Below the pieces are notes generated by a model, which was not told the origin of the DNA, made no database searches, and saw only the letters and a program-made list of their open reading frames with translations. Source: a virus. Taken from it: a DNA stretch of 56,306 nucleotides. The translations under genes and the position numbers were made by a program. Positions 4,793 through 52,406 of the stretch are shown here, piece after piece (position 1 is the first letter of the stretch; every line of letters starts with the position of its first letter). The stretch is taken from positions 1 through 56,306 of IMG/VR virus record IMGVR_UViG_3300027985_000330. One strand, written 5' to 3'.

Positions 4793-5188
4793 TTATGATA
4801 ATTCCGAATCTAAATCCGCTTCCGTCATTGGTGTAGGATTGAAGCATTCCAGCGTTGTTGAAACGTCCCAGAAGCCATTATTGAAGGTTGGCTGATAGAT
4901 TCCACCTTGCATCTGAACAATATGCCTTGCGCGTCCGTTCAGACCATCTATAGTTATGTAAAATTGATCAGTTCCATCGTTGATCTTATGCTTATGCCAT
5001 GATGCGAAAATCGCATATTGCTGACGCGTAAATCTCCATGTAAGCGAGAAATTGAAGTGCGTTGAGGTATCACTTCTGCGTTGCCGAATCCTACCGCTCT
5101 CCATCGTTGATCTAACGATATTTGAGATAGGTGTAATCTTATACGAATCCCACAACGGATCTGGTAAAACTGATGGGTATTCTTCCAT
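4793..5188 (-). CDS. minor tail protein (gpM-like position)
   Basis: 131 residues, beta-rich, with 'FNFSLTWRFTRQQYAIFASWHKHKIN' and 'FYITIDGLNGRARHIVQM', a pattern met in distal tail or tail-tip proteins that follow the tape measure gene. Its stop codon is two bases from the next gene and its start overlaps the tape measure stop, so all are translated from one message. Function is inferred from synteny with lambda gpM. Confidence 0.55.
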   Translation of the reverse strand: MEEYPSVLPDPLWDSYKITPISNIVRSTMESGRIRQRRSDTSTHFNFSLTWRFTRQQYAIFASWHKHKINDGTDQFYITIDGLNGRARHIVQMQGGIYQPTFNNGFWDVSTTLECFNPTPMTEADLDSELS

Positions 5189-16715: not shown

Positions 16716-17750
16716 TTAGGAGATTGATCCGTAAATTGCACCAGTTTTACCCGCATAATCTGCACGGAACTGTGGAACCTTGATGCCCATTACCTTGAAG
16801 TGTGCATCCATTCCGCCCTGCTCAAACCATTGCAATGTAGTGATTGCCATACCGTTTACAGTGCGGTTGAAATCTTCATTCGGAGCAAGAATGATAACAT
16901 CAAACTTAGCGTCAGAAAGAAGCGGAATTTCTTCAATACTTCCAATATCGGAATGCTCCTTCAAACGCATCAATAGAGTCTTGTTTGCGTAATTAGAGCT
17001 GTAATCAAGATTCATATACTTTGACCATGCAGCTGCCATATAAACCTTAAATGGACCACGTTGCAGATGCGTAGTTTTCAGAATATCAATCATTGTATTG
17101 ATTTCCTGATAGGTAGTAGCAGGAGTCCATGCAATAGCAGTCGGAGCTGTCAAGTCGTTCTTGGTAGCCGTTGAACCAGCAACCTTTACACCAGCAACAT
17201 CATAGCCATTAAACTTCTGAGCAGCAATATTACCCAAGTGACTGTTTTCTATCAATTCTGCAACGGCATAAGTTGCGTCCTTGATGCGACGGGTTTCCAA
17301 CGGAATACCAAAACGACGTGCCATTCTCAATTCACGATATGGAAATGAGAAATCGCTCGATGTAATAACTAACGGAACTGAATCGTCTTCGTAGACGGTG
17401 CGATCGCCATTTGATTTTTGCAAACCGCTCATACTTTGGACTGCTTCTCCGCTAGAACTTGCCTTTTGAGATAGCAAGATTCCAATATCGAAACCGTTCG
17501 GAATGTTTTTAACCAATCCAGCATTCTGCATTGATGTAACAAACGGAAGTTCTTTGCGAACCAATTCAGCAACCGTATCGTCGATCATCTTCCATTCTTC
17601 ATGGAGAAGGGTTGCATCGGCATTCCATGCGAGAGTTTTCCCGTTGTTTGCCGTGTAATAAGATTTATTGTCTGAGTGAACAAATGGGCGAAGAATGTTC
17701 ATGTCTCCGTCATTATTCAACAGCATATTCAAAATGTTTTGATAGCTCAT
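16716..17750 (-). CDS. major capsid protein (HK97 fold, encapsulin/DUF2184-like)
   Basis: 344 residues, after protease/scaffold and decoration genes and before connectors. Helpful features: 'LPFVTSMQNAGLVKNIPNGF', the spine-like 'SSDFSFPYRELRMARRFGIPLETRR' (about 120-145), and the P-domain-like 'RGPFKVYMAAAWSKYM' and 'VIILAPNEDFNRTVNGMAIT'. It ends 'GKTGAIYGSIS'. This pattern fits capsid proteins related to the linocin/encapsulin group. No N-terminal scaffold segment is present, in line with a separate scaffold in the protease gene. Confidence 0.85.
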   Translation of the reverse strand: MSYQNILNMLLNNDGDMNILRPFVHSDNKSYYTANNGKTLAWNADATLLHEEWKMIDDTVAELVRKELPFVTSMQNAGLVKNIPNGFDIGILLSQKASSSGEAVQSMSGLQKSNGDRTVYEDDSVPLVITSSDFSFPYRELRMARRFGIPLETRRIKDATYAVAELIENSHLGNIAAQKFNGYDVAGVKVAGSTATKNDLTAPTAIAWTPATTYQEINTMIDILKTTHLQRGPFKVYMAAAWSKYMNLDYSSNYANKTLLMRLKEHSDIGSIEEIPLLSDAKFDVIILAPNEDFNRTVNGMAITTLQWFEQGGMDAHFKVMGIKVPQFRADYAGKTGAIYGSIS

Positions 17751-28805: not shown

Positions 28806-29018
28806 TTATTGTTTAATGCTTGAAATATAGTTAATTGCTTTTGTCAATGATCCCCATGTCGGCGATTCATTATAAAAGCTAAGACACTTGAGGATTATTT
28901 CTTGTGCCTTTTCTTGGCTTCCTGCAAGATTGAAAAGAGATCCATAAACTCTTACAATATGCCCTTGGATGTTTACTCCGAATTCTTCTCTGCTGATTGC
29001 GTCTGTTTTATTTTTCAT
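28806..29018 (-). CDS. hypothetical protein
   Basis: 70 residues from MKNKTDAISREEFG, the ATG after the promoter near 29.03 kb. Contains 'YGSLFNLAGSQEKAQEIIL'. Single-gene unit between promoter and terminator. Function unknown. Confidence 0.5.
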   Translation of the reverse strand: MKNKTDAISREEFGVNIQGHIVRVYGSLFNLAGSQEKAQEIILKCLSFYNESPTWGSLTKAINYISSIKQ

Positions 29019-29022
29019 GTTT

Positions 29023-29066
29023 ATAATAGAACATGAATCAAAAACGATTTCAAGCACTTTTTTTAA
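29023..29066 (-). promoter_or_regulatory. promoter with A-tract (early family, copy 2)
   Basis: Minus strand A7, GTGC, TTGAAA, 19-base spacer, TATTAT. The start codon of the 70-residue gene follows within about 5 bases of the -10 box, so the message would be almost leaderless; that argues for some caution. Confidence 0.4.
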
Positions 29067-29081
29067 AAAAAATAAAAAAAA

Positions 29082-31247: not shown

Positions 31248-31261
31248 ATTATATATAATGA

Positions 31262-31666
31262 TTAAATATACTCAAAGCGTTGCTTTTGTTGTGCAACGAT
31301 ATTATCAGGAACGTTATGCGTATTCTGAAAATTTCCGTCCATTTCTTTTACGTAAACCGTATATCCATATTTATTAGCAAGCTTAATATATGGTTCATAT
31401 TCCCATTTTCGCGTAAATGTATTTGAAACGATGACACTATCTCAATCGTTTAACATCGCAGCTTCTGCTGTGTGTTGGCAGAGTTCATGGCAATGCTTAA
31501 GTTTTGCTGGTTCGAACTTATATTGTTTATTTTCATCGATCATGAACATATCAGATTCAACATGCAAAGCAAGCAATCCGCTTAATACAGATTCTTGCCA
31601 AAGCTTATTTGCAAATGTGGTTTTACCGCTTCCGCTCCATCCTCGAATAATCCAAAGTTCTTTCAT
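31262..31666 (-). pseudogene. P-loop kinase (polynucleotide/zeta-type) with an in-frame TGA
   Basis: The frame opens 'MKELWIIRGWSGSGKTTFAN' with Walker A at 9-17, then 'HVESDMFMID'. It stops at TGA (31442-31444) after 74 codons, but the same frame then continues with a typical second half of this kinase family ('DSVIVSNTFTRKWEYEPYI', 'NTHNVPDNIVAQQKQRFEYI') to TAA at 31262, total 134 residues. TGA is otherwise used as a normal stop in this genome and TGG as Trp, so code change is unlikely. A single C-to-T change (CGA to TGA), a read-through signal, or a sequence error explain it. The family phosphorylates nucleic acid 5' ends or similar substrates. Confidence 0.7.
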
Positions 31667-31720: not shown

Positions 31721-31803
31721 CAATAAAAAAGCCGTCGAAAGACGGCTAATCTAACACTGAGTTGGATTGCACCTCGTTACCTCGGGCAATCAACATTCTT
31801 GTT
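31721..31803 (-). repeat. 83-base direct repeat, copy 1 (last attC plus terminator)
   Basis: Nearly the same as 42645-42726, with one substitution and one base insertion. It holds the last site of cassette array 1 and the following terminator. Confidence 0.9.
31724..31747 (-). terminator. terminator closing cassette array 1
   Basis: Minus strand AGCCGTC, TTTC loop, GACGGCT, then TTTTTATTG: a perfect 7-bp stem with the T-run. Confidence 0.9.
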
Positions 31804-31807
31804 CTGA
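31749..31807 (-). other. attC-like site 1.8 (last of array 1)
   Basis: R'' TCAGAAC, arms GTTGATTGC and GCAATCCAAC, R' GTTAGAT; 59 bases. R'' fits its own cassette start GTTCTGG in six of seven places. Confidence 0.75.
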
Positions 31808-32064
31808 GAAATAGTTATGGTTATACTTTCGCCCCTCTCTATTTGATTTTTTTCAACAAATGTTTCCAGTAGCTTTATAAATCCTGACAGTCCTCCAACA
31901 ATTGAAACCATTTCAGTGTCTTTGATTTTTCCCTTTGTTTCAGTGTCGTGACCAGCACCCCAAGATGTAAATCCGTATGTGCTGACAATGAATTTGCCAG
32001 AACAAGGCGTTTGAATTGAATTGCGAGAATCTCTCGCGTTTTGTTTGTCTGTTTCGTTGTTCAT
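31777..32064 (-). CDS. cassette protein with attC-encoded leader
   Basis: 95 residues from MNNETDKQNARDSRN. The first 21 residues up to 'QTPC' are encoded by attC-like site 1.7; the Cys codon TG|T spans the exchange point. The cassette part starts SGKFIVSTYGFTSWG and has 'MVSIVGGLSGFIKLLE' and 'ITITISQNK'. The last residues VDCPR are encoded inside site 1.8. No known family. Confidence 0.6.
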   Translation of the reverse strand: MNNETDKQNARDSRNSIQTPCSGKFIVSTYGFTSWGAGHDTETKGKIKDTEMVSIVGGLSGFIKLLETFVEKNQIERGESITITISQNKNVDCPR

Positions 32065-32111
32065 ATCTTTATTAGTTCGTGTTCTCGCAATCATTCAACT
32101 TGTGGTTCTAC
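31997..32111 (-). other. attC-like site 1.7, carries a start codon
   Basis: R'' GTAGAAC, very long arms (TTGAATGATTGCGAGAA against TTCTCGCAATTCAATTCAA), R' GTTCTGG; 115 bases. ATG of the next gene lies between the arms. R'' is identical in complement to its own cassette start GTTCTAC. Confidence 0.85.
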
Positions 32112-32356
32112 AGATATTTGTTTGCGTCTTTCACGGCAGATCTATCCTGCTTGGTTGCAGACGGATAAACCATGTCAGCAAGTGGACACATCCGAAAATC
32201 TAGCACCATTTGAAATCTCCGAATGGTGAAATACCAGAGCCGACCACCCCAATACCGGTCAAATACAAACCACTTTTTCCAGCAGTTCTTATTCTTTTTG
32301 TGTTTTCGAAAGCTTACTTTTGGGAGCTTCCATCTATTTGCTTTTAACATATTCAT
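32108..32356 (-). CDS. cassette protein, basic and aromatic
   Basis: 82 residues from MNMLKANRWKLPKVSF; rich in Lys, Arg, Trp ('KNKNCWKKWFVFDRYWGGRL'), ending in an acidic-polar tail. Its stop TAG lies in the R'' box of site 1.7. It begins after the site 1.6 boundary with its own ATG. Basic and aromatic character suggests nucleic acid or protein binding; no family recognised. Confidence 0.5.
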   Translation of the reverse strand: MNMLKANRWKLPKVSFRKHKKNKNCWKKWFVFDRYWGGRLWYFTIRRFQMVLDFRMCPLADMVYPSATKQDRSAVKDANKYL

Positions 32357-32368
32357 AATAAAATTTTA

Positions 32369-32436
32369 GTAGAACAAATCAGTTCGTCGGAATTGCTTAC
32401 CGTTCCTGCTCGCAATCCACGACTTCGCGGTTCGGC
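32369..32436 (-). other. attC-like site 1.6
   Basis: R'' GCCGAAC, arms GTCGTGGATTGC and GCAATTCCGACGAAC, R' GTTCTAC; 68 bases. R'' complements its own cassette start GTTCGGC exactly but not the adjacent R'. Confidence 0.85.
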
Positions 32437-32771
32437 AAATAAGGAAGCGGTATCCAGTGAGTTGGTTCATTCGCACCATCAAGCTTGTGCTGTGACACAG
32501 AATTTTTAACGTAACTCCACCATCCTTCTGCCTCTTGTTGTGAATCATAACCTTGATCCTTCCATAGCTCAACCTCAGTTCCATCTGTAGCGATTATAAC
32601 CCCAGTATCATAAAAGGCATTATGAACAATCCAAACAGATGCGAAATCGTATCCAACTATAATTTCAGTTCCATCTTTTGGTGCCGTCTCAATAGACATC
32701 CAAGCCGAACAAGGCGTTTTAAGAAACTCGCTACCGCTCGTTTCGTTTTGATTATGTATATCTTTTGTCAT
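32397..32771 (-). CDS. cassette protein, DUF551-like, with attC-encoded leader
   Basis: 124 residues. Leader MTKDIHNQNETSGSEFLKTPC comes from site 1.5, then 'SAWMSIETAPKDGTEIIVGY' and 'WWSYVKNSV', 'PTHWIPLPYLPN', the pattern of DUF551 proteins common in phages (two Trp-Pro motifs). Thus the array carries phage-type genes. The C-terminus NREVVDCEQER is encoded within the arm of site 1.6. Function of DUF551 is not known. Confidence 0.65.
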   Translation of the reverse strand: MTKDIHNQNETSGSEFLKTPCSAWMSIETAPKDGTEIIVGYDFASVWIVHNAFYDTGVIIATDGTEVELWKDQGYDSQQEAEGWWSYVKNSVSQHKLDGANEPTHWIPLPYLPNREVVDCEQER

Positions 32772-32798
32772 AGCTCGTTCTTAAACTTAGCGTTAGCT
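32704..32798 (-). other. attC-like site 1.5, carries a start codon
   Basis: R'' AGCTAAC, arms AAGTTTAAGAACGAGC and GCGAGTTTCTTAAAACGCCTT, R' GTTCGGC; 95 bases. R'' complements its own cassette start GTTAGCT exactly. The loop encodes MTKDIHN and the leader. Confidence 0.85.
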
Positions 32799-32987
32799 AG
32801 ATTCTTCATTGATTTCTTCTAATGTCATTTTGATTTTCGTTTCACCAATTCCGTGTTTATACCACAATAATGTAAACTCGTGTTTTGCCATATCGGTCAT
32901 ACCAGCGTTTAGAATCTTGGTGTATTCCGGCATAGCCCATTCTCCAGTCATTTCAATACATTCTTCAAATAATTCTCCAGCTTTCAT
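32793..32987 (-). CDS. cassette protein (own start)
   Basis: 64 residues; own ribosome site AGGAAACGCT before ATG. Helical: 'MKAGELFEECIEMTGEWAMP', 'LNAGMTDMAKHEFTLLWYKH'. Stop TAA lies in R'' of site 1.5. No family recognised. Confidence 0.55.
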   Translation of the reverse strand: MKAGELFEECIEMTGEWAMPEYTKILNAGMTDMAKHEFTLLWYKHGIGETKIKMTLEEINEESS

Positions 32988-33008
32988 AGCGTTTCCTTTC
33001 TAATTTGG

Positions 33009-33076
33009 AGCTAACAATACATTCTATGTAATCCTGAACCGCTCCGATCTCAGGATACATAAATTAAGCGTTCGGA
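33009..33076 (-). other. attC-like site 1.4
   Basis: R'' TCCGAAC, arms ATGTATCCTGA and TCAGGATTACAT, R' GTTAGCT; 68 bases. R'' fits own cassette start GTTCGGT in six of seven places. Confidence 0.85.
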
Positions 33077-33318
33077 GAAATAAATTTCACCCACTCCCAA
33101 TGCCCAAACGTGCAAATAGAATCTCGATAACCGTATCCATGGCATCCAAGATTTCGACTTTCGTTGCTATGCTTGCGTGCCGTCGTTGCGCTTATTTTTG
33201 TCCAAAGCACTCCAAATTCATTTTGGAATCGGTCGCCTTCGATCAAATCTCCAAAGGTCACCGAACAAGGCGCTGTATCCAATTCGGACACGTCCGCGTT
33301 TTGGTTGTCGTTACTCAT
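33064..33318 (-). CDS. cassette protein with attC-encoded leader
   Basis: 84 residues from MSNDNQNADVSELDTAPC (leader from site 1.3, ribosome site GAGGAC eight bases up). Then 'SVTFGDLIEGDRFQNEFGVL' and 'WTKISATTARKHSNESRNLG', ending 'WVKFISPNA' inside R'' of site 1.4. 'FGDL..GD.F' with a Trp and 'KI' is a short beta-barrel pattern seen in small integron and phage proteins. Role unknown. Confidence 0.6.
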   Translation of the reverse strand: MSNDNQNADVSELDTAPCSVTFGDLIEGDRFQNEFGVLWTKISATTARKHSNESRNLGCHGYGYRDSICTFGHWEWVKFISPNA

Positions 33319-33353
33319 AATTTTTGTCCTCATGGATAAGCTTTGCGTTGGAC
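33260..33353 (-). other. attC-like site 1.3, carries ribosome site and start codon
   Basis: R'' GTCCAAC, arms GCAAAGCTTATCC and GGATACAGCGCCTTG (with GGAC/GTCC inside), R' GTTCGGT; 94 bases. R'' matches own start in four of seven places only. Confidence 0.8.
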
Positions 33354-33357
33354 ACAT

Positions 33358-33618
33358 TTACTTAGATTGTGGAAACCCTGACGCCATTGCGTTGACTGCA
33401 ATAGCCCACATTAAAAGGATTATCCCAGTTGCTATTACTTCAATGTCGGTTTCAAAGTGATAGTTCCAGCCAACATACATGGTTGTTTCAAGCCAGTATG
33501 GAATTGTTGATACGATGGTAATAATTCCGGCATATATTTTTGTCCAACAAATCTGTGGAGAGGAACACTCTACCTGCTCCTCGGTTTTCGTAGTATCTGT
33601 TTTCATTTTAGCTTTCAT
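33358..33618 (-). CDS. cassette membrane protein with attC-encoded leader
   Basis: 86 residues. Leader MKAKMKTDTTKTEEQVEC from site 1.2 with ribosome site GAGGGA; then 'SSPQICWTKIYAGI' and two TM helices (about 27-45 and 60-80, 'IEVIATGIILLMWAIAVNAM'). Ends just after R'' of site 1.3. Integral membrane protein of unknown role. Confidence 0.6.
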   Translation of the reverse strand: MKAKMKTDTTKTEEQVECSSPQICWTKIYAGIITIVSTIPYWLETTMYVGWNYHFETDIEVIATGIILLMWAIAVNAMASGFPQSK

Positions 33619-33647
33619 TTTTCGTGTCCCTCACATCGGCGTTATGC
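33560..33647 (-). other. attC-like site 1.2, carries ribosome site and start codon
   Basis: R'' GCATAAC, R' GTTCCTC, 88 bases. The left arm GCCGATGTGAGGGACAC is almost the same as in site 2.6 of the other array; the right arm pairs less well. Confidence 0.65.
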
Positions 33648-34055
33648 ATTTAATGGTTGTTTCGTTTTTGCATCAATCCAACCTTGCTTTATTCCGAAAT
33701 CTTCATCGAAATCGTAAGTTTCAAATTTATGCGAATCACTTCTGTTTACACAATGGCAAAAGACCATTTCGCAACTTCTCTTTGTTAACGGTCCAATCTG
33801 ACGGTCAACTTTTCTGGTTTCTTTGTTTACGAGTTGTATATAATAGTTCATATCGAGGTTAGCCAATGAAGAATCCCGTTTTAGCCCCCGCCTGCCCATT
33901 TCGTCGCAATACACGACTAAACCAGCAAAGCACGATGCCTGCCAGTCCGAACCAGCCTCGGCTTCCAGCAGATCGGCGTGGGCCTGCTCTGCACGTTGCA
34001 TTAGTTCGGAATCCGCGAGGGATGCGGTATATTTTTTGATGTCTCCGTAAGTCAT
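33642..34055 (-). CDS. cassette protein (own start)
   Basis: 137 residues from MTYGDIKKYTASLADSE. The first half is richer in G+C than the rest (Ala/Glu-rich helices, 'LLEAEAGSDWQASCFAGL'), the second half is AT-rich ('SCEMVFCHCVNRSDSHKFE', four Cys). The break suggests mosaic origin. Ends in R'' of site 1.2. Function unknown. Confidence 0.55.
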   Translation of the reverse strand: MTYGDIKKYTASLADSELMQRAEQAHADLLEAEAGSDWQASCFAGLVVYCDEMGRRGLKRDSSLANLDMNYYIQLVNKETRKVDRQIGPLTKRSCEMVFCHCVNRSDSHKFETYDFDEDFGIKQGWIDAKTKQPLNA

Positions 34056-34068
34056 AGTAAAAAAGAGA

Positions 34069-34120
34069 GGCTAACAAAGCGATCTAGCCAATTCAGACCC
34101 CGCTCGCTTTGTGGTTGTTC
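34069..34120 (-). other. attC-like site 1.1
   Basis: R'' GAACAAC, perfect 8-bp arms CAAAGCGA and TCGCTTTG, R' GTTAGCC; 52 bases. A textbook compact site. Confidence 0.85.
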
Positions 34121-34134
34121 GTATGTTTTCTGAT

Positions 34135-34251
34135 TTAGTCTTCATGGCTAATCTTATGGTTCTCAGATAAAACAGGCAAGCGCAAAAGCGCAGCAACCTT
34201 TGCTTTGCTACCGCGTTTCTTCCGTTCGCGCTTGTAGTCGGGTGGGGTCAT
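34135..34251 (-). CDS. small basic protein in cassette (38 residues)
   Basis: ATG overlaps the preceding stop (ATGA). Reads MTPPDYKRERKKRGSKAKV, then 'AALLRLPVLSENH', strongly basic N-terminus. Short but translationally coupled and without other use for the DNA. Could bind nucleic acid. Confidence 0.45.
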   Translation of the reverse strand: MTPPDYKRERKKRGSKAKVAALLRLPVLSENHKISHED

Positions 34252-34427
34252 GCAATCCAAGATTTTACCTGTTCTTTGGTTGCAAAAGTCACATGGCCAT
34301 TGTCGGTTGTGACTTCAAATTTTCCTGCTACCGCATCGACGCGACGAGCGCGAAATCCGTTTTCCATCATTGGGCGAACTGGGGTGTTTTTTAGTGCTTT
34401 GTTGATTTTGTTTTGAAGTGTTTTCAT
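34248..34427 (-). CDS. cassette protein (own promoter)
   Basis: 59 residues from MKTLQNKINKALKNT. The rest, 'FRARRVDAVAGKFEVTTDNG' and 'VTFATKEQVKSWI', looks like a small beta module. A longer start at 34454 is possible but its ribosome site would be too close. A promoter lies about 45 bases upstream within the same cassette. Confidence 0.5.
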   Translation of the reverse strand: MKTLQNKINKALKNTPVRPMMENGFRARRVDAVAGKFEVTTDNGHVTFATKEQVKSWIA

Positions 34428-34470
34428 ATTTTTATGGTTTTCCGTTGGGCTCATTCCCTTCGATGTTTTT

Positions 34471-34499
34471 AATATCGCACAATCTGCGATTTATTGCAA
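34471..34499 (-). promoter_or_regulatory. promoter inside first cassette of array 1
   Basis: Minus strand TTGCAA, 17-base spacer, GATATT. It would drive the whole of array 1. Confidence 0.55.
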
Positions 34500-34548
34500 G
34501 CATTATTTTCGCATTTTGTGCGATTTTTTTTAACCAAACAAAATGGAA

Positions 34549-34611
34549 TGAGAACAAACTGCTGGAGTGAATGCCGAGAAAGCTCGTCATCCACTCAGCT
34601 CACGGTTATAT
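34549..34611 (-). other. attC-like site 1.0 (first of array 1)
   Basis: R'' ATATAAC, arms GCTGAGTGGATG and CATTCACTCCAGC, R' GTTCTCA; 63 bases. It follows the stop codon of the 48-residue gene. Confidence 0.8.
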
Positions 34612-34758: not shown

Positions 34759-34805
34759 ATAGTAGCGCAAACGTATTACGCACGTCAATACTTTTTTTAA
34801 AAAAA
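34759..34805 (-). promoter_or_regulatory. promoter with T7A7 tract (copy 3)
   Basis: Minus strand T7A7, GTA, TTGACG, 18-base spacer, TACTAT. Lies directly after the large terminase stop codon and about 7 bases before the start of the 48-residue gene. Confidence 0.6.
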
Positions 34806-36215
34806 TTACAGCACGCCGTAAAATTTACCGTCATCGACTAAATGCGCGAACCCTTGAGAGAGTGCATCTACTTGGTCTTTGTATTTGCTTGCCGGAAAGT
34901 ATTGCAATTCATCAATCAAAGCACGATTCCACGCACCCCTAACCATTTTTACATTTCCGTTATTGACTTGAGATGCTAACGGTCCAGCCCGATCCGCTTT
35001 ATTACCTGTAGGCAAATCTATGATAACTTCCCAACCCATTAGCATTCTGGCCGTAGCTTCCGCAACCTCGAGTCCGCTCGATCCGCCTTGCCTTTCTATT
35101 ATAATCGGAATATTTTTACCATCTGCAGTTGCTGTCTGTTTTATGATTGGTTCACGTTCCGAAAAATCCCATTGGCCCCTAACCATGTCTAAAAACCAAA
35201 TAACGCCGCGAGTATCAATGCCAATCTCACATCCAGCAGTATAACATCCCCTATCCTTTAAACCGGCCGTATCCCAAGATCGAATGGATCTAACTAGATT
35301 ATATGGACGTTCATCTTCTATCTGTATCCGAGCTGTTTTAAACATGCCACCTTCTCGCGGAATCGGTGTTTGCATGTATTGGCATGCATATCCGAACGAA
35401 CCAAGAATAGCTTTTTTTTCATCTAAAACCGAACGCGACAACCGAACAGGATCGAGCAATCCATCTTTATAAAATCTTTTGTATTTTGCAGGCTTTACAT
35501 TATCGCTTAATTCGGCCGGAAAGCACAAATGTTTTATTTTTCCGCCTAGTTCTAATTTTGATCCGGTTGGATCGTCTTGCGCAATTCGCTGCATAATTAA
35601 TGCCTCAACAGAAACTGCAGAATCTACTTTTCTTGATGGCAAAACTTCATTTTGGAAAAGATTAGCTTTGTATTTTTCGGCATCAGAATCACCGTCTAAT
35701 ACTTTTAGCGGATCATCTGGAATAATAAAATGCGCATGACTTCCGGTTGGATTTCCACCTGTAGAAAATGTTAATCTTTCGCCCCCAAGCGTGTTTCCAA
35801 ATGTTTGAACTCCATCATTGTCACGCCTTATTTCAATTTCTGAAAAAAGCTTTTTATATTTATCACTCTTGATAATATCTCGACATTTCCTTGAAAGACG
35901 TTCAGCCAATCTCGATTCGCAACTTGTGCAAATAATAACCGCATGCGGCATTCTTGTCCATATCCATGCAGGAAAGGCAATCGAGCAAATACTGCTCTTT
36001 GATGTAGATGGTGGAACATTAATAATTAAATCATATAGCTTCTCCTTCCCATCAAATACGCGCTCTGCAACCTTTTGAAGCTCATTACATAATACCTCAT
36101 GATGGAAATTAATAACAAGCTTTTCATGGTTATTTACTTCCCAAAATTCTTTGAAGAAAATCAGAAAAGAACTCCTACACGCTTCAGCAAGAAATATGTC
36201 TTCGTTAATCTGCAT
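34806..36215 (-). CDS. terminase large subunit
   Basis: 469 residues from MQINEDIFLAEACRS (the GTG 24 bases further up is possible). Walker A-like 'INVPPSTSKSSICSIAF' (66-82), arginine-rich 'RLAERLSRKCRDI', Walker B region, and the RNase H-type nuclease part beginning 'RSIRSWDTAGLKDRGCYTA' with Asp, then 'IIIERQGGSSGLEVAEATA' and 'KDQVDALSQGFAHL'. This is the ATPase that pumps DNA into proheads and cuts the concatemer. The small subunit is about 8 kb away, upstream in transcription, which is unusual. Confidence 0.9.
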   Translation of the reverse strand: MQINEDIFLAEACRSSFLIFFKEFWEVNNHEKLVINFHHEVLCNELQKVAERVFDGKEKLYDLIINVPPSTSKSSICSIAFPAWIWTRMPHAVIICTSCESRLAERLSRKCRDIIKSDKYKKLFSEIEIRRDNDGVQTFGNTLGGERLTFSTGGNPTGSHAHFIIPDDPLKVLDGDSDAEKYKANLFQNEVLPSRKVDSAVSVEALIMQRIAQDDPTGSKLELGGKIKHLCFPAELSDNVKPAKYKRFYKDGLLDPVRLSRSVLDEKKAILGSFGYACQYMQTPIPREGGMFKTARIQIEDERPYNLVRSIRSWDTAGLKDRGCYTAGCEIGIDTRGVIWFLDMVRGQWDFSEREPIIKQTATADGKNIPIIIERQGGSSGLEVAEATARMLMGWEVIIDLPTGNKADRAGPLASQVNNGNVKMVRGAWNRALIDELQYFPASKYKDQVDALSQGFAHLVDDGKFYGVL

Positions 36216-36672
36216 TAATTCCGTAGTCTTTCGGATCACAACCGCGTTGCTTAATCATATATATATTATACGCCATGAAATCTTGATCGTCTTTATCGTT
36301 TTCCCAATGCATAAAACCGAAGCAACGCAACGTCCAATACATAATTTCAGATTGTGTCATGTTATGTCCGTCCTCACGCAATATATCCAGAAAATACTGA
36401 TCACATTGCGCTTGTGTATATTGATGCGTGTGGTATCCCCAATCGTGAGCGAATGCAGCCCGAATGATACGCGGATCAAATGGAGAACCAACCAATGCCC
36501 AAGCGAATGAAGGGATGCTAGCACCATCAGATTCGAATCCATCCGGAATGAATACTTCACCGAATCGAGTATCAACCAACAAATCGCGCTTGAGTTTTAC
36601 ACATTCGCGAATTTTTGCATAATGCGGATATAAGCATGGTTCATAAAGTGGAATATATATGTCTGTATTCAT
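36205..36672 (-). CDS. DUF1353 family phage protein
   Basis: 155 residues. 'FIPDGFESDGASIPSFAWALVG' and 'IRAAFAHDWGYHTHQ' are the hallmark of DUF1353: His and Asp in 'HDWGYH' suggest a metal centre. Its role is not established; found near lysis or packaging genes. Overlaps the terminase start. Confidence 0.75.
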   Translation of the reverse strand: MNTDIYIPLYEPCLYPHYAKIRECVKLKRDLLVDTRFGEVFIPDGFESDGASIPSFAWALVGSPFDPRIIRAAFAHDWGYHTHQYTQAQCDQYFLDILREDGHNMTQSEIMYWTLRCFGFMHWENDKDDQDFMAYNIYMIKQRGCDPKDYGINAD

Positions 36673-40324: not shown

Positions 40325-40537
40325 TTAAGATTTCACGGTTATCCAAGATAGTTGACGATTAACAATGCGTTGAGCTGCGTCCCTCGCTTCTTTCTCGCGT
40401 TCCGGCATTGCACAATCAATCATCGTTCGCAAGTCATTATTGTTATCGGATATATCATCCATAGCTGATCCAATGTCAGCACCTATCCGAACGCGCAAAT
40501 CCTCATTGCGCTGATTGATCAACTGAACCAGTATCAT
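40325..40537 (-). CDS. small hypothetical protein next to portal
   Basis: 70 residues, helical, overlapping the end of the portal gene by 35 bases; a later start is possible. 'RVRIGADIGSAMDDISDN' and 'EREKEARDAAQRIVNRQL'. May be part of the head. Function unknown. Confidence 0.45.
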   Translation of the reverse strand: MILVQLINQRNEDLRVRIGADIGSAMDDISDNNNDLRTMIDCAMPEREKEARDAAQRIVNRQLSWITVKS

Positions 40538-42011
40538 TTCCGTCTTGTGTTAAAGCTTGTTCGTCTCCAGAATAAGCTTTTTGGTTTTTATCAGCATTTT
40601 CAATAATTTGCTGTATTAATTCGTCGTCGAATCCCCAAATTATAGAATAATAATCCTCACGCGTCATTATTGATTCAAGGTTGCTCTGTGTATACAGTGC
40701 AAGTGCTTTTGTTTTCTTTTCAGCACTTTCCGCCAGTTCTTCGGGTGTGAGTTTATTAAGATCTGGAAACTCAACAGAGAACTTCTCAACGCGCGGCAAT
40801 ACACCATAATCCATCAATCTATTGATTACCGGACGAATAATTTTTGGAATAATGTATTTCGTTTGACGGCGCATCAATCGCTTGTTCCATGCTTTTTTAT
40901 CTTCCGCACTCGCATATTTCGCTTCTTCGCTACCCAAGAAAATTCTCCACGGAACTTCTAACGCTATACATATTGCCTGTAATTGTATTGCAATGTGTGG
41001 AGTTGGATCGTTGATTGTTCCTGCTACCGTTTTAACGCTTCCGGTTCCGACCATGTATTTTTGCAATGATTCCGACAAACGTTCGAGTTGTTCCTTGATT
41101 GCTCCCTTCAGCGTTTCACTTGCGTTAATCTTTGCTGCCGCTTCCGGAGACATTTCGAAAATCAGCGATGGAAATGCATTCTTCCAATATCCTTCAGCCG
41201 ATGCACCATAGATTTTTCTCAGATTATACACATTGTTATAAACAGGCTTTAACTCTGGAGTTCCTTTTGTGTCGCTATCCAAGCAATTATCCGCTAAATG
41301 ATGGCAACGCGTCCAGTGAAACTTCATCGTCTTTGTTTCGAGTGGATTCGTTGTTGTAGCTTCAGATAAGTAATCTTTATATGTAACAGAATAAATGACA
41401 GGCTTTCCAAATCGTGGGCTATTCGTTCTTGTCTCCCATCGGTCAATCGTGATTGACGGTTCAGAATATGCACGGATATATAGCAATGAATGCGATAGAT
41501 TCTCGTTCCACTTCTCAGATGCTTCATCATATCCTTCAACCGGTAAAGAAGTATCTATATTGTTTGCATCATTCAATCCGAAAACGATTATTCCATAATG
41601 TCCAATCTTCGACAGAATATCAGCACGAAGCATCATTTCATAAAGCGAATGCTCATCATTGAGTATTTCTATGCCTCTTTCAAATTCTGTTTGCTGGCTT
41701 ACGTCTTCTGTTTCGTAAATCCATGGATCATCAGCCCAGCTTTCCTCCGGTAATAGCGATACAATTCGCGCTCCAATAGCCTCACGATCAAAAATTTCTT
41801 TATATTGTGATAGTGTTATTTGAGATGGATAATTACACTCGTTATTAATATCCTTTTTTCCATCAACTGAACCCGTAAAACGATCAAACAATGTTCGAAT
41901 CGCATTAGATACAGAATGATAATGATTCATCGCAAACATTTCAACATTCGAAATAGCATTCGATACATGCGCTAAAACCGTTTTTTCTTCTGCTTTATTA
42001 TCTCCCGACAT
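40503..42011 (-). CDS. portal protein (DUF1073-like)
   Basis: 502 residues. 'SQITLSQYKEIFDREAIGAR' and 'VSLLPEESWADDPWIYE' (about 66-105), 'LRADILSKIGHYGIIVFGLN', 'RCHHLADNCLDSDTKG' and 'ALEVPWRIFLGSEEAKYASA' form the DUF1073 portal pattern. The 12-mer ring gives DNA entry and the base for the tail. Long helix near 270-330 and Asp/Gln-rich C-terminus. Unlike common order it is separated from the capsid genes by over 20 kb. Confidence 0.85.
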   Translation of the reverse strand: MSGDNKAEEKTVLAHVSNAISNVEMFAMNHYHSVSNAIRTLFDRFTGSVDGKKDINNECNYPSQITLSQYKEIFDREAIGARIVSLLPEESWADDPWIYETEDVSQQTEFERGIEILNDEHSLYEMMLRADILSKIGHYGIIVFGLNDANNIDTSLPVEGYDEASEKWNENLSHSLLYIRAYSEPSITIDRWETRTNSPRFGKPVIYSVTYKDYLSEATTTNPLETKTMKFHWTRCHHLADNCLDSDTKGTPELKPVYNNVYNLRKIYGASAEGYWKNAFPSLIFEMSPEAAAKINASETLKGAIKEQLERLSESLQKYMVGTGSVKTVAGTINDPTPHIAIQLQAICIALEVPWRIFLGSEEAKYASAEDKKAWNKRLMRRQTKYIIPKIIRPVINRLMDYGVLPRVEKFSVEFPDLNKLTPEELAESAEKKTKALALYTQSNLESIMTREDYYSIIWGFDDELIQQIIENADKNQKAYSGDEQALTQDGNDTGSVDQSAQ

Positions 42012-42644: not shown

Positions 42645-42726
42645 CAATAAAAAAGCCGTCGAAAGACGGCTAATCTAACACTGAGTTGGATTGCACCTCG
42701 TTACCCCGGCAATCAACATTCTTGTT
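42645..42726 (-). repeat. 83-base direct repeat, copy 2
   Basis: Partner of 31721-31803, with one base fewer and one substitution. The copies end two unrelated genes in different reading frames. Confidence 0.9.
42647..42671 (-). terminator. terminator closing cassette array 2
   Basis: Same hairpin and T-run as the terminator of array 1 (AGCCGTC/GACGGCT, TTTC loop). Confidence 0.9.
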
Positions 42727-42730
42727 GGCA
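42673..42730 (-). other. attC-like site 2.1 (last of array 2)
   Basis: R'' TGCCAAC, arms GTTGATTGC and GCAATCCAAC, R' GTTAGAT; 58 bases, nearly the same as site 1.8. Confidence 0.8.
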
Positions 42731-43078: not shown

Positions 43079-43136
43079 TGATAACAAAGCAGTTCGATTA
43101 ACTCGCTACCGCTCGCAATCGACTTTTGGGTTAGCA
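43079..43136 (-). other. attC-like site 2.2
   Basis: R'' TGCTAAC, arms AAAGTCGATT and AATCGAACTGCTTT, R' GTTATCA; 58 bases. R'' fits own start GTTCGCA in six of seven places. Confidence 0.85.
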
Positions 43137-43340
43137 AAGTAATTGCTCTATTGCTATAAGCATACCAGAAGCTTCGAGCATTTGCCCGCCAATGACAGCT
43201 TTAAATGTCTTTGAGTTTTCTGGTGATCGTTCATACTCCTTTTCTAGCGTATCAATTCTGCCATTGATATAGCTAACAAGTCGTTCGAGGTCGGAATTGC
43301 GAACACGCCGCAATTCCGAAGTATCATTATTTGTTGTCAT
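43131..43340 (-). CDS. cassette protein, start inside attC
   Basis: 69 residues. MTTNNDTSELRRV is encoded by site 2.3, in a frame different from the Cys-Ser type (codon GTT at the junction). Then 'RNSDLERLVSYINGRIDTLE' helical; stop in R'' of site 2.2. Function unknown. Confidence 0.5.
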   Translation of the reverse strand: MTTNNDTSELRRVRNSDLERLVSYINGRIDTLEKEYERSPENSKTFKAVIGGQMLEASGMLIAIEQLLC

Positions 43341-43395
43341 ATCTTTTCGGTTTTAAAGTTTTAGTTACTCGCAATCCCTCAACTTATGGTTATGC
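43298..43395 (-). other. attC-like site 2.3, degenerate, carries a start codon
   Basis: R'' GCATAAC, R' GTTCGCA, 98 bases; the arms pair poorly. R'' complements its own cassette start GTTATGC exactly. Confidence 0.6.
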
Positions 43396-43582: not shown

Positions 43583-43675
43583 GCATAACAAGGCGTTTTA
43601 AAAAATTCCGCAATTCTCCATCTCTTTTAGTTCGATCATTCATCATGCGCTCCATTCTTAAACTTTTGGTTCGCT
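43583..43675 (-). other. attC-like site 2.4
   Basis: R'' AGCGAAC, arms CAAAAGTTTAAG and TTTTTTAAAACGCCTTG, R' GTTATGC; 93 bases. R'' fits own start GTTCGCA in six of seven places. Confidence 0.75.
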
Positions 43676-43926
43676 AAAATAAAATTTGCATACTCCAACG
43701 CCCTTGAGCTTCTGAATACTCCCCAAAACTCTGCCCAAGTTCCATCTCCACAATCTACGTTCCACGTTTCCACGCTTGTGTCGAATGTAACAAGCGGATG
43801 ATTTGTTTTTCGTATCCAACTATCTTCGACTTCGTAATCTAATAGAATTAATTGCGAACAAAACGGTGGAAGCAATTCGCTACCGTTCATCTTCTGATTT
43901 TCATTAGTTTGTGTTTTATCGCTCAT
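43636..43926 (-). CDS. cassette protein with attC-encoded leader
   Basis: 96 residues. Leader MSDKTQTNENQKMNGSELL...FC from site 2.5 (Cys codon at the junction), then 'SQLILLDYEVEDSWIRKT', 'VETWNVDCGDGTWAEFWGVF' and a helical end. Ends inside site 2.4. No family recognised. Confidence 0.6.
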   Translation of the reverse strand: MSDKTQTNENQKMNGSELLPPFCSQLILLDYEVEDSWIRKTNHPLVTFDTSVETWNVDCGDGTWAEFWGVFRSSRALEYANFILANQKFKNGAHDE

Positions 43927-43946
43927 GCTTCGCCTTTGGGTTTCCA
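43853..43946 (-). other. attC-like site 2.5, carries ribosome site and start codon
   Basis: R'' TGGAAAC, arms CCAAAGGCGAAGCA and GCAATTCGCTACC-type complement (GAATTGCTTCCACCGTTTTG), R' GTTCGCA; 94 bases. R'' fits own start in four of seven places. Confidence 0.7.
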
Positions 43947-44170
43947 AAATATCGATCAACGTCTATATTCCATTGAATCAACTCATCGATCTTTCGCCTA
44001 ACATCTGCTACAGTCTTGCACCCATCTGCCGTTCCAATACAAGCTACGATCATCATTTCATCCAGTGCCTTGTAGTATATGTTGCCCTCGGTGTCGGTTT
44101 CCGAGAATCCATCAGAACAATCCGCGTAAGAGGAACGCTCTATTGCACTAGTTTTGTTTTCGTTGCTCAT
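43916..44170 (-). CDS. first cassette protein of array 2, with attC-encoded leader
   Basis: 84 residues. Leader MSNENKTSAIERSSYADC from site 2.6 then 'SDGFSETDTEGNIYYKAL' and 'TVADVRRKIDELIQWNIDVD'. Overlaps the next gene by 11 bases. Function unknown. Confidence 0.55.
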   Translation of the reverse strand: MSNENKTSAIERSSYADCSDGFSETDTEGNIYYKALDEMMIVACIGTADGCKTVADVRRKIDELIQWNIDVDRYFGNPKAKHER

Positions 44171-44200
44171 GGGTTCGAGTCCCTCACATCTGCGTTAGAG
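44112..44200 (-). other. attC-like site 2.6 (first of array 2), carries ribosome site and start codon
   Basis: R'' CTCTAAC, arms CGCAGATGTGAGGGACTC and GAGCGTTCCTCTTACGCGG, R' GTTCTGA; 89 bases. It starts 10 bases after the small terminase stop, so it acts as the entry site of the array. Confidence 0.75.
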
Positions 44201-44209
44201 AATACATAG

Positions 44210-44659
44210 TTAATTTAATCGTTTCGCTTTATATGCTGCATAAGCTTCATGTATACGCTCCATTAGCTCTTTATCGCAAAACTCTGATAGATTCATTAAC
44301 GACGGTCCATTTGTTACATTTGCATCAATCTCGATTTGCTGTGTTGGCTTTCCGATCACATACTCAACAATTTCTTTTACTCTATTAAAGTCTCCTGAAT
44401 TTGCAGCATTTAAACATGCCCTTGCAACAATCGTGACAATTATTGGTTTTGATCGATCAGATGCATATTCCTCTATTGTTTCGATTTTCTCAAAAACAAG
44501 CTCCTTAAATGCATTTCTCAAATCTATTGCAGAATACCCAAGTTCTTTAATCTGTGTATATATCTTAGGTTTTCCTCCAGATCTATTTATATTTTCAGGA
44601 CGATCTTTGAAATTATTCTTCATCCAGTTTTTTTGTTTATGTATTGGAGTTGTTGGCAT
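44210..44659 (-). CDS. terminase small subunit-like protein
   Basis: 149 residues. Basic N-terminus 'NWMKNNFKDRPENINRSGGK' (Arg/Asn-Pro-Gly-like 'GGKPK' motif), then a helical core 'IIVTIVARACLNAANSGDFN' and 'RVKEIVEYVIGKPTQQIEI', as in small terminases of the DUF5681-like group. It would bind the packaging site and stimulate the large subunit. Confidence 0.6.
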   Translation of the reverse strand: MPTTPIHKQKNWMKNNFKDRPENINRSGGKPKIYTQIKELGYSAIDLRNAFKELVFEKIETIEEYASDRSKPIIVTIVARACLNAANSGDFNRVKEIVEYVIGKPTQQIEIDANVTNGPSLMNLSEFCDKELMERIHEAYAAYKAKRLN

Positions 44660-44667
44660 TTTAAAAA

Positions 44668-45030
44668 TTAAGTATTTATATTTTTATTACTATCATACCC
44701 ATATGATTGTAGATGTTTTTTTCCTTTAAAAAACTCAAGTATTTCTTTTATCCATTGATTGTGAAAATCATATAATTCTTTATCGTTGTCTATAATATAT
44801 TGCTCGATTCTCGAATTAAAAGAAAGATTTCCAGAACCTTCTATTGTATAATAATTCCCATCATATGTTTCGATTGAAATTATTTTAGCATGGGATGATG
44901 CAAAAATCAACTCAACTCTATTGTTATTCATAAATAAATCCCTAGTCAACGCTTCTTTTTTAGAACATGCTTTATTTCGAAGGTTTGAAATCAAGATTGT
45001 TGCATCTTCTATAAGCCCTTCGTTTATCAT
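44668..45030 (-). pseudogene. C-terminal part of a phospholipase-D-like protein
   Basis: 120 residues from MINEGLIEDATILIS. Shows the second half of a PLD-like domain: 'SSHAKIISIET' (HxK) and 'IEGSGNLSFNSRIEQY' (GSGN), then 'LYDFHNQWIKEI'. Family members have a longer N-terminal part, which is missing, and the gene runs into the frame of the truncated nucleotidyltransferase at 44972-45121. It may still make a protein. Confidence 0.6.
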
Positions 45031-45121
45031 ATGAAACAAGATAATCTACGTCGTCTGTATGACGACTTGAACCAAGCGATCTCAATGCTTGTCCTCCGAT
45101 TAATATCTTTTTACTTTCCAT
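44972..45121 (-). pseudogene. N-terminal fragment of nucleotidyltransferase-like protein
   Basis: 49 residues from MESKKILIGGQALRSLGSSR, then 'HTDDVDYLVSYDK', the start and GS/DxD motif of a nucleotidyltransferase, after which a foreign frame (RRAYRRCNNLDFKPSK) ends the chain. It joins the PLD-like remnant within some 40 bases, as a deletion between two genes would leave. Confidence 0.6.
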
Positions 45122-45133
45122 GATTAAAGTATC

Positions 45134-45797: not shown

Positions 45798-46694
45798 TTA
45801 AAATACTTCTGTTAGTGTTTCTTTGATTTTTCGGATTAAAAGTGTATTTAGAGTCTTAAAATCTACTTTTGGCATCTTATATTTTTTAACTATATTCCAA
45901 GATTCTTCAATAATGAATTCATTAAAACAGCGTGACAGTAATTCTGGTATATATTTCGAACTCCAACCATCGTGTAATTCTTTCACTTTTTCGAATTCTT
46001 TTTCGATAAATGCAGTTGTCGCCAAATCATTAATGATCTCTTCTTCAATCATCTTAGATCCTTTCGATTCTGGAGCACCCATTTCTTTTCGATGCTTTTC
46101 TTTGAATTCGCTCGTTACTATTTTTGCCCATGTTTTGCGACCATATTTATTTTCGTAATTATAGTTTTTGCAAACTACACCTTCTCCAGTTCCTTCACCA
46201 TCCTTTATTAGATAGTTATTTTCGTCTAAACATTTTAGCAAATTCTCATATGTAGGATTATTAATAATGCGCAATGGTGGAATATATTGGATACCATATT
46301 CTTCCAAGATTTCGCTGTATTGTTCATAGGTTAAATAATCTCCGCATGAATCAATAACATCAAATACGTAGAAATTGCGCCATGCCGATTCTCTATATGT
46401 TTTTAATGAATGCGGAACGAGCCATTCTCCAGCTAAACGAAGTTTTGGAAATTCTTTGAAAAACTCTTCAAATTGTTTCTGAGTTACCGCCCAATTCATA
46501 AACCCAGCATTATCATTTTCAATACTTAATTGGCGATTGCGTGATCCAGCGCAAAGTTCACCATCTGAATCGAGCCAGAGCTGAGCATTTGTTCCGTCTA
46601 TTTTCGGAAACACATAAACGCGACCGATAAGAATTCCGTCTGTTTCATCAGTTCCCAATCGTTCAACGTGCTGATATTTTTGATATTCACTCAT
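45798..46694 (-). CDS. RNA ligase (Rnl2-like)
   Basis: 298 residues. Motif I 'VFPKIDGTNAQLW' with Lys31 for AMP, motif III 'RNFYVFDVI', motif IV 'TGEGVVCKNYNY', motif V region 'GRKTWAKIVTSEF'. Short helical C-terminal domain (about 220-298). Seals RNA nicks, for example after host tRNA cutting. Partner enzymes could be the interrupted kinase and the phosphoesterase. Confidence 0.85.
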   Translation of the reverse strand: MSEYQKYQHVERLGTDETDGILIGRVYVFPKIDGTNAQLWLDSDGELCAGSRNRQLSIENDNAGFMNWAVTQKQFEEFFKEFPKLRLAGEWLVPHSLKTYRESAWRNFYVFDVIDSCGDYLTYEQYSEILEEYGIQYIPPLRIINNPTYENLLKCLDENNYLIKDGEGTGEGVVCKNYNYENKYGRKTWAKIVTSEFKEKHRKEMGAPESKGSKMIEEEIINDLATTAFIEKEFEKVKELHDGWSSKYIPELLSRCFNEFIIEESWNIVKKYKMPKVDFKTLNTLLIRKIKETLTEVF

Positions 46695-48357: not shown

Positions 48358-48798
48358 TCAGCTTTCTATTAACATTTTACGATATTGCTTCATTCTCAGC
48401 TTTGCATTATTCGCAGGCTCAACGCCATTGTCAAGCAAAATTTTACGCTGTTCCTTCGATGACAATCTACCAAAACGACGCACGATGATAGGCAATCCTT
48501 TTGGATGCATAATGTCTGTTTGTTTCGTTGACCATATAGCGCATCGTTTCAGGATTGTCTCAAGATCGAGTTCGTATCTCTGAACAAGCGCATTCATTCG
48601 CGTTTTCCATGCGTTTTCGATTTTACCTAGCAACACATTCGATTCACGATGCACGACTCCACGAACAAAACCGCTGCAATGGTCGTGATCTACAACTGCG
48701 CAATCATCATTAAGCGGAATATCAAGAATAGGGCATCTCTCTGGTTTGTTTGCAATGCGCCACTCTCGAAGTTCGTCTGTGTTACGTATGATTTTCAC
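48358..48798 (-). CDS. recombination endonuclease VII-like (HNH)
   Basis: 146 residues. 'CAVVDHDHCSGFVRGVVHRE' with the catalytic DHDH (37-40) and 'SNVLLGKIENAW' match T4 gp49-type endonuclease VII. Three of the four usual zinc Cys are missing, as in other phage forms with His-Arg at that place. It resolves branched DNA before packaging. C-terminal basic helix. Confidence 0.75.
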   Translation of the reverse strand: MKIIRNTDELREWRIANKPERCPILDIPLNDDCAVVDHDHCSGFVRGVVHRESNVLLGKIENAWKTRMNALVQRYELDLETILKRCAIWSTKQTDIMHPKGLPIIVRRFGRLSSKEQRKILLDNGVEPANNAKLRMKQYRKMLIES

Positions 48799-49763
48799 AA
48801 TTCACCAAATAATTCTTGTTGGTCTTGTTTCCCTGAATTAACAGCTTCATCGCAGTTAAGAACAGCTTGCTTATAATATGTAGATTTTAACTCTGCTCCG
48901 ATTGCTTTTCTTCCATTTATTAATGCCCCGTATGCTTCACTTCCAACACCCAAAAATGGAGTTAATACTACTTCATCTGGATTGCTTCTTAATACAATAG
49001 TCCTCTCAATGACATCCAGTTGCAAAGGATGCACATGGCGTTCATCGTCTGGATCTTTACATTCCTTATATGGCAACACACGATCAATTCGAATGTCATC
49101 CCAGAATGCGCTCGCATATTGTCGCCATATCCAATGAGAATAACGATTTTCAGTTTGCTTCCCTGTATGCCCTTTCCATTGTAACAATTCATGTGGAATC
49201 TGTCTTTCGCCAGCATATGAATGTAATCCGGTTGGATGAATAACAGGAACTTTATTTTCTCCTTTTTTTCTAAACAAAAGCAAATAGTCCGCGCTTGCAA
49301 CGTCACATAAAATTGAATCATCAACAATCTGTTTGTGAGCTAAACCTTTTGCCATTGTTCTGTTTCTAACTCCAAGAGGTTCTTTCCAAATATGGTAACG
49401 CGCAATATATTTAAAACCAAGCCTTTCATGCATTCGGATAATATCACCAGGAAAGTCAATCAATGATCCACCAGTATTTGCTCCATGAGTTGGAATATCC
49501 ATGCAATGAACAGCACTACAACGACCCGATTTTGTAGTTCGAACAATTTGGTTAACTAAGTATTCATAGTGCTTAAAAAACTCATCATATGATTTGCAAT
49601 TACTCATATCACGTTCATCTGAACTGTAATTATATAGTCCGCAAAACGGAGGAGAATAAATAGACAAATCAACAGAATCATCTGGCAATGCGCTTACGAC
49701 ATCAACGCAATCTCCATTATAAAGAGCATATCTATCTGTTATTTTTTGTGCAATTACATCCAT
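48795..49763 (-). CDS. DNA N4-cytosine/N6-adenine methyltransferase (beta class)
   Basis: 322 residues. Motif IV 'DLSIYSPPF' (32-40) comes first and motif I 'VVLTPFLGVGSEAYGALI' near 267 comes last, so the beta order. Target domain in the middle. May guard phage DNA against restriction or mark DNA. Overlaps the nuclease and helicase genes. Confidence 0.85.
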   Translation of the reverse strand: MDVIAQKITDRYALYNGDCVDVVSALPDDSVDLSIYSPPFCGLYNYSSDERDMSNCKSYDEFFKHYEYLVNQIVRTTKSGRCSAVHCMDIPTHGANTGGSLIDFPGDIIRMHERLGFKYIARYHIWKEPLGVRNRTMAKGLAHKQIVDDSILCDVASADYLLLFRKKGENKVPVIHPTGLHSYAGERQIPHELLQWKGHTGKQTENRYSHWIWRQYASAFWDDIRIDRVLPYKECKDPDDERHVHPLQLDVIERTIVLRSNPDEVVLTPFLGVGSEAYGALINGRKAIGAELKSTYYKQAVLNCDEAVNSGKQDQQELFGEL

Positions 49764-51843: not shown

Positions 51844-52101
51844 TTAAACTAGCTCAACATTGCTGTTACCTGATAGCCAAGCGATATTGCTAGCAACCTG
51901 ATTTTCGGGAATACCAATATCTCTCAATGTTTGCCTTCTCTTCATTTCTGCATCATGTAATGGCCCGCTTACTGTATCGTATCGAATCTGAAATTCGTTA
52001 AGCTTCTTTTTGTGAGAACGCTTCTGACGTGCGATATACACGTTTTCACTTTTTCCCGAGAAAATGAACTTTTGGTTAATTAATAAATCTCGTGCTTTCA
52101 T
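51844..52101 (-). CDS. hypothetical protein
   Basis: 85 residues from MKARDLLINQKFIF; basic middle ('ARQKRSHKKKLNEFQIRYD') then helical 'MKRRQTLRDIGIPENQVA'. Own promoter. Function unknown. Confidence 0.5.
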   Translation of the reverse strand: MKARDLLINQKFIFSGKSENVYIARQKRSHKKKLNEFQIRYDTVSGPLHDAEMKRRQTLRDIGIPENQVASNIAWLSGNSNVELV

Positions 52102-52105
52102 GATG

Positions 52106-52156
52106 ACAGTAGAACATGAATGAAAATGCGAGTCAATCACTTTTTTTTTAAAAAAA
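52106..52156 (-). promoter_or_regulatory. promoter with A-tract (copy 4)
   Basis: Minus strand A-tract of ten, GTGA, TTGACT, 19-base spacer, TACTGT, then the ATG of the 85-residue gene within about 5 bases. The tail of the spacer (ATTCATGTTC) is the same as in copy 2 at 29.03 kb. Confidence 0.45.
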
Positions 52157-52157
52157 A

Positions 52158-52406
52158 TTATTCACAACCGTTTTCTTTGAATGCCTTCAAAATTTCATCC
52201 AAGAAATACTCACGCGCAAAATGTAAATGCTTGCACCGTGTAGACGCATTAGATGCTCCATCGCGACGCTTAGGCCAGCAACGGCATTGGAACTGTTTGC
52301 AAGTGCAGACATCTTCGACTATATCAACGAGGTATTCGTCAATGTCTTTGTCCGATGATGACGTGATCCAGAATCGCGTTGGAGAATCAAAAGAGCGTAT
52401 TTTCAT
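52158..52406 (-). CDS. SWIM-type zinc finger protein
   Basis: 82 residues; 'VCTCKQFQCRCWPKR' then 'TRCKHLHFAREYFLDE' makes the SWIM CxC...CxH pattern. SWIM domains bind DNA or protein. Stop and start overlap with the methyltransferase (ATGA). Confidence 0.7.
   Translation of the reverse strand: MKIRSFDSPTRFWITSSSDKDIDEYLVDIVEDVCTCKQFQCRCWPKRRDGASNASTRCKHLHFAREYFLDEILKAFKENGCE

Follow-up and report, generated by a model that had tools for sequence, protein, structure and literature searches.

We found that the window, the whole 56,306-bp stretch of DNA that was analysed (contig C244, 38.6% G+C, a member of a 2.74 Mb draft genome bin), belongs to a tailed phage and carries two arrays of integron-type gene cassettes, while a third array lies on a related contig. 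The sites and the units between them are attC-bounded integron cassettes, an identification that we regard as practically certain. In the whole window, there are 13 cassettes of 192-527 bp, each with a small gene or genes in one direction and a stop near an attC. The arrays are phage CALINs, a kind that is already known and of which they are a richer variant. We consider it quite probable that these are genuine CALINs in a tailed-phage backbone, made up of formerly circular cassettes that an integrase from the infected cell put in place, with long attC sites that also act as translation-initiation modules.

Sites and Cassettes of Array 1

Array 1 (34611-31749, minus strand, as are all of its features) comes directly after the gene for the terminase large subunit (terL, 34806-36239, minus strand) and has nine attC sites and eight cassettes. 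The sites are 59-115 nt long with NNNNAAC...GTTNNNN ends, and the units between them are 248-527 bp. The first-pass annotation had placed nine sites with such ends on the minus strand, and its outer coordinates were right; the inner bounds were revised, and with the right boxes, the lengths of sites C and H are 97 and 68 nt, respectively. Sites A, the first of the array (34549..34611, R' box GTTCTCA at 34555-34549), F (33009..33076) and H (32369..32436) were defined by their R boxes and the covariance model described below. In site C (34069..34165), an ORF runs in the loop from an ATG to a TAG stop within R' (GTTAGCC), whereas in sites D (33542..33647), E (33260..33353), G (32704..32798) and I (31997..32111), the frame from a loop start codon continues into the following cassette. 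Site J (31749..31807), which closes the array, has the R' box GTTAGAT, and an intrinsic terminator (31730..31747) lies right behind it.

The first cassette (34135..34454) holds two ORFs with an ATGA overlap near 34250, in agreement with the earlier description of small one-direction units, one of them with two coupled ORFs; the stop codons lie inside or beside the following R'', as had also been seen. Cassettes 2 (33642..34055, 137 aa, without known family), 5 (32793..32987, 64 aa) and 7 (32108..32356, 82 aa) have their own starts. The genes of cassettes 3 (33358..33618, hydrophobic and membrane-like by eye), 4 (33064..33318), 6 (32397..32771) and 8 (31777..32064) start within attC D, E, G and I, respectively. 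The cassette proteins (38-137 aa) are mostly without a recognisable family, that of cassette 6 being weakly DUF551-like, and they may plausibly serve accessory functions, for instance in counter-defence. A promoter-like sequence, TTGACG-18-TACTAT (34759..34788), is found ahead of the gene preceding attC A, with a match count not above that of shuffles.

R Box Pairing Follows the Cassette

Insertion of a circular cassette at G|TT means that the terminal R' bases of a standing attC derive from the next cassette. Hence, the expected pairing partner of R'' is the R' of its own cassette rather than that of the attC in which it now stands. Over the three arrays, 49 of the 60 variable bases were complementary between the R'' and R' of the same cassette, a value reached by none of 200,000 permutations, whereas the match inside the standing attCs was at the chance level (19/72). 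In array 1, the own-cassette match was 28/32, which no other among the 40,320 permutations equalled, compared to 10/36 within the standing sites; three boxes (R'' of C, R'' of H and R' of A) had been picked with the complementarity rule known, and the other six cassettes, free of these boxes, matched at 20/24. Array 2 by itself gave 13/20, which was reached by 9 of 120 permutations.

Further Arrays and Their Shared Ends

A covariance model built from the sites of array 1 alone (R1) was run over the window, the bin and other phage DNA. It scored its own training sites at 30-38 bits and found array 2, six sites at 44200-42673 on the same strand (18.0-32.8 bits, E 1e-6 to 0.03); in the remaining window, nothing outside arrays 1 and 2 scored above 15 bits. 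The first-pass annotation, which also missed the start codons in the long attCs, had described array 1 alone, although the window has at least two. Array 2 is flanked by a gene (44210-44659) that we read as the putative small terminase subunit and by the portal region. Its first site, K (44112..44200), as well as L (43853..43946) and N (43271..43395), have a loop start codon from which the frame continues, in N in a different phase; in M (43583..43675), the end of the loop ORF overlaps the cassette start as ATGA. Site O (43079..43136) was defined by the covariance model and its R boxes, and P (42673..42730), the last, has the R' box GTTAGAT. The five cassette genes (44170-43916, 43926-43636, 43581-43390, 43340-43131 and 43060-42713) are on the minus strand like the sites, as is the intrinsic terminator right behind the array (42654..42671), the sequence of which is identical to that behind array 1.

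R1 also found array 3, three sites on a co-binned contig (C129, corresponding to L095 1-9928). The end of this contig and window bases 1-570 are 94.2% identical, so the contig comes from a sister strain and extends the phage beyond the left end of the window. It contains tail genes, a DNA polymerase sliding clamp gene (DnaN) and array 3, which encodes a helix-turn-helix protein and adjoins a gene for a putative Rad52-like annealing protein, so read by eye.

The last attCs of the three arrays (J, P and L095 1667-1610) are near-identical and all close with GTTAGAT; the ends of arrays 1 and 2 share 86 bp at 96.5% identity, followed by the common terminator. The body of attC A recurs in array 3 (L095 2395-2333), within a 155-bp match of 93.5% that has different genes around it. 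In addition, the R'' box that opens array 1 and the one that opens array 2 agree with the GTTAGAT end box at 3/4 bases, which is expected if the cassettes entered one ancestral site. What is new is that one phage lineage has two to three arrays sharing one terminal attC, two of them with a common terminator, and that nine long attCs bear a start codon. If this is true, one phage can carry a number of gene-cassette arrays, each in a transcription unit apart from the others, and phages would be vehicles for integron cassettes, which they perhaps also shuffle, across bacterial groups. Behind attC A, the first cassette opens with a conserved segment (34463-34549, minus strand; L095 2249-2333, minus strand) containing an inverted repeat, ATCGCACAA...TTGTGCGAT, which spans a promoter-like sequence and is possibly a regulated cassette promoter.

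The arrays could also be explained in another way. The attCs might be genuine sites that are not active in the phage, in arrays that were acquired once and now change by homologous recombination between the A- and J-type ends, helped by the phage annealing protein. Such exchange would not create the own-box pairing, although it could spread it, and the R boxes form a matching pair in every single cassette, with many different boxes among the 13 window cassettes; we therefore consider this account rather unlikely, while acknowledging that the J-type ends common to three arrays, the A-type start common to two with different genes around, the putative annealing gene next to array 3 and the absence of an integrase from the window and the bin all agree with it. 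No relative carrying a different array at this locus was found, and the exchange of cassettes by integron recombination, which we prefer, is for this reason something that we infer. More tentatively, the lineage might keep several integron landing sites with a conserved terminal attC, served by a borrowed integrase, as a permanent means of exchanging small accessory genes, and the long attCs might be expression modules that give a start and an in-frame leader to cassettes lacking a start, so that any cassette in the right phase would be translated anywhere.

Source of the Integrase

The term CALIN denotes at least two attCs in the same direction with no intI near the cluster, while a complete integron includes intI. 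Our own covariance models gave nine and six such sites, and searches of the whole bin with PF00589 and TIGR02249 yielded no integron integrase in the window or the bin; the three tyrosine recombinase matches in the bin are outside C244 and C129, and all are below the integron-integrase cut-off. The arrays are therefore CALINs, and the proposal of an integrase-less phage array in the first-pass annotation stands. Its suggestion to look for intI in host genomes gave a divided answer: none was found in the bin, and the 150 genomes of the bin's family all stayed below the cut-off, whereas 105 of the 395 genomes of the phylum were above it, one of them in the bin's class.

Phage CALINs had been called uncommon, and they are, but they are not unprecedented: 17 were described by Qi et al. 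2023 (PMC9892861), and the virulent phages TJE1, PH101 (H101) and P12002L carry CALINs (PMC9892861). Recombination with IntI1 was demonstrated for attCs of TJE1 and PH101, with five of the six sites tested in that study being active (PMC9892861). We examined whether the phage could have its own integron integrase in a part outside the window, as the contig is not closed (a terminal repeat is absent) and C129 adds at least 9 kb to the lineage. This is very unlikely, since no IntI over the cut-off occurs anywhere in the bin, C129 included, and the published virulent phages with CALINs are likewise without an integrase (PMC9892861). Instead, the arrays were likely built by a cellular integrase acting in trans: each unit would be a former circular cassette, put in at G|TT of an attC by an integron integrase that came from a cell infected by the phage or its ancestors.

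Recognition of Known attC Sites

In 292 kb of other phage DNA, the top seven matches of R1 were two TJE1 sites (E-values 5e-5 and 5e-4) and five in the PH101 cluster, one of which looked false by eye. In the reverse test, a model from six near-identical TJE1 and PH101 sites (R2), which was too narrow, recovered neither the window sites nor integron loci. A widened model (R3) was run on the 395 genomes of the bin's phylum, and its matches were mostly in CsmA-bearing families, i.e., green sulfur bacteria; tandem canonical attCs were recovered in L162, L163 and L168, with own-box matches of 4/4 in L162 and L163. The attCs of these three genomes are usable as a reference set.

Like the phage sites, the green sulfur chromosomal arrays (families f18 and f16) have an AAC, a 7-nt spacer, a stem with an extra base, an 8-nt spacer and a GTT, and they also follow the own-box rule; in family f18, they are often accompanied by IntI. 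They differ in having short-looped attCs, mostly of 50-60 nt, and a comparison of the phage cassette proteins with the green sulfur attC loci gave no match. The phage sites thus have ordinary attC geometry, which does not imply that the phage infects green sulfur bacteria. In summary, the attC identity proposed in the first-pass annotation is supported by the R box complementarity, the covariance model and the recovery of known attCs.

Other approaches were less informative. The covariance check that had been proposed succeeded with R1, which scores the sites and finds array 2, whereas a simple score of R boxes and arm complementarity placed the sites no better than shuffles; the proposed folding of each site as a single strand failed to discriminate (bottom-strand DNA, z -2.4 to +1.2 compared to shuffles). 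An Rfam search returned nothing, and exact attC patterns found no relatives over the viral contigs. A pattern scan of genomes gave seven hits, of which R1 scored one (L099) weakly (E 0.12) and left the rest unscored; in the bin's class, there were scattered single weak matches and no arrays. We also considered whether the inverted repeats might be terminators of transcription or phage hairpins of another kind, a reading for which the folding values leave room and which the general use of intergenic hairpins by phages would allow; this reading is hardly credible and was rejected on the basis of the R box rule, the AAC and GTT ends, the canonical spacer geometry and the recovery of the published attCs of TJE1 and PH101.

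Start Codons Within Long attC Sites

The long sites (at least 89 nt) have an ATG in the loop; nine long attCs bear a start codon, and in seven of these the frame enters the next cassette gene. Many attCs thus seem to be the source of the start codon for the gene behind them. The loop frame is open up to R' in 9 of 10 long sites (mean of 5.8 for shuffled loops, P = 0.02), which is weak evidence by itself, so that the case for a leader rests on the cassette genes that lack a start: five of the seven attC-started genes have no in-frame ATG, GTG or TTG within 20 codons past the crossover. Relative to the crossover, seven of the main cassette ORFs have their start 53-71 nt upstream and the other six 7-100 nt downstream. 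Six of the seven attC-started ORFs have a common phase, with the crossover within a TGT codon. The cassette 6 protein has a free-standing homologue in phage CUB19, and the Met of this homologue falls on the crossover codon position; for the cassette 4 protein, the homologue from phage nickie has its own N-terminal extension, so the leader rule is not universal.

Transcription of the cassettes probably starts at upstream phage promoters, because the arrays lie between phage genes and two of them end at the same terminator. Ribosomes would start in the loop of a long attC and then either continue in frame into the gene of the next cassette or stop at the cassette start and restart there. If this is true, the recombination site also sets the reading frame, and an exchange of cassettes would lead to an exchange of protein N-termini.

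Short ORFs within attC are known to aid downstream translation (PMC8876359), and in the literature on such ORFs we found no description of a whole set of in-frame attC-cassette fusions. ORF-11 of attI1 in class 1 integrons is a small ORF over the recombination point that boosts the next cassette (PMC8876359), and its stop is a TAG at positions 3-5 of GTTRRRY (PMC8876359), as in attC C of the window. However, ORF-11 is a single ORF in attI, compared to nine attCs here, seven of them with a frame into the cassette gene.

Comparison with Other Phage-Borne Integron Parts

The CALINs of TJE1, PH101 and P12002L resemble those of the window in being integrase-less attC clusters in a phage backbone with small genes in one direction. 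They are single short arrays (three attCs in TJE1), in contrast to nine and six attCs in the window and three in the sister strain, and the common array ends and the start codons in long attCs set the window phage apart from them. Integron parts on phages are also seen in Vibrio anguillarum, the prophages of which contain integron fragments (Qi et al. 2023, PMC9892861); there, the pieces are of the host's own chromosomal integron, whereas no such host array was found in the bin's class here.

The Phage Carrying the Arrays

The tailed-phage assignment comes from the terminase and from the genes for the portal (40503-42011), tape measure (5188-7692), major head protein (16716-17750), primase/helicase (53444-55318) and a tail protein (271-3891), all on the minus strand, and the phage is probably virulent. 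Its nearest GenBank terminases, at about 37% identity, are those of Cellulophaga, Croceibacter and similar phages. Searches with the terminase and the portal led to distant phages alone, with attC-type sites in none of those tested, and the tail protein search found no relatives. Phage contigs are commonly mis-binned, so the bin that includes C244 may not be the host.

A single in-frame TGA near 31442 interrupts a small kinase-like gene at 31249-31666 (minus strand; MKELWIIRGWSGSGKTT...), and the frame then resumes with VIVSNTFTRKWEYEPY; this could be a sequence error or a broken gene. Two overlapping ORFs in different frames (44972-45123 and 44668-45039, minus strand) resemble one nucleotidyltransferase-like gene with a frameshift. 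A 63-bp direct repeat with 81% identity occurs far apart in the phage, at 29013-29073 and 52096-52158. An RNA ligase and two DNA methyltransferases are encoded at 45798-46694, 48795-49763 and 52403-53440 (minus strand), which are usual anti-restriction or repair genes of phages.
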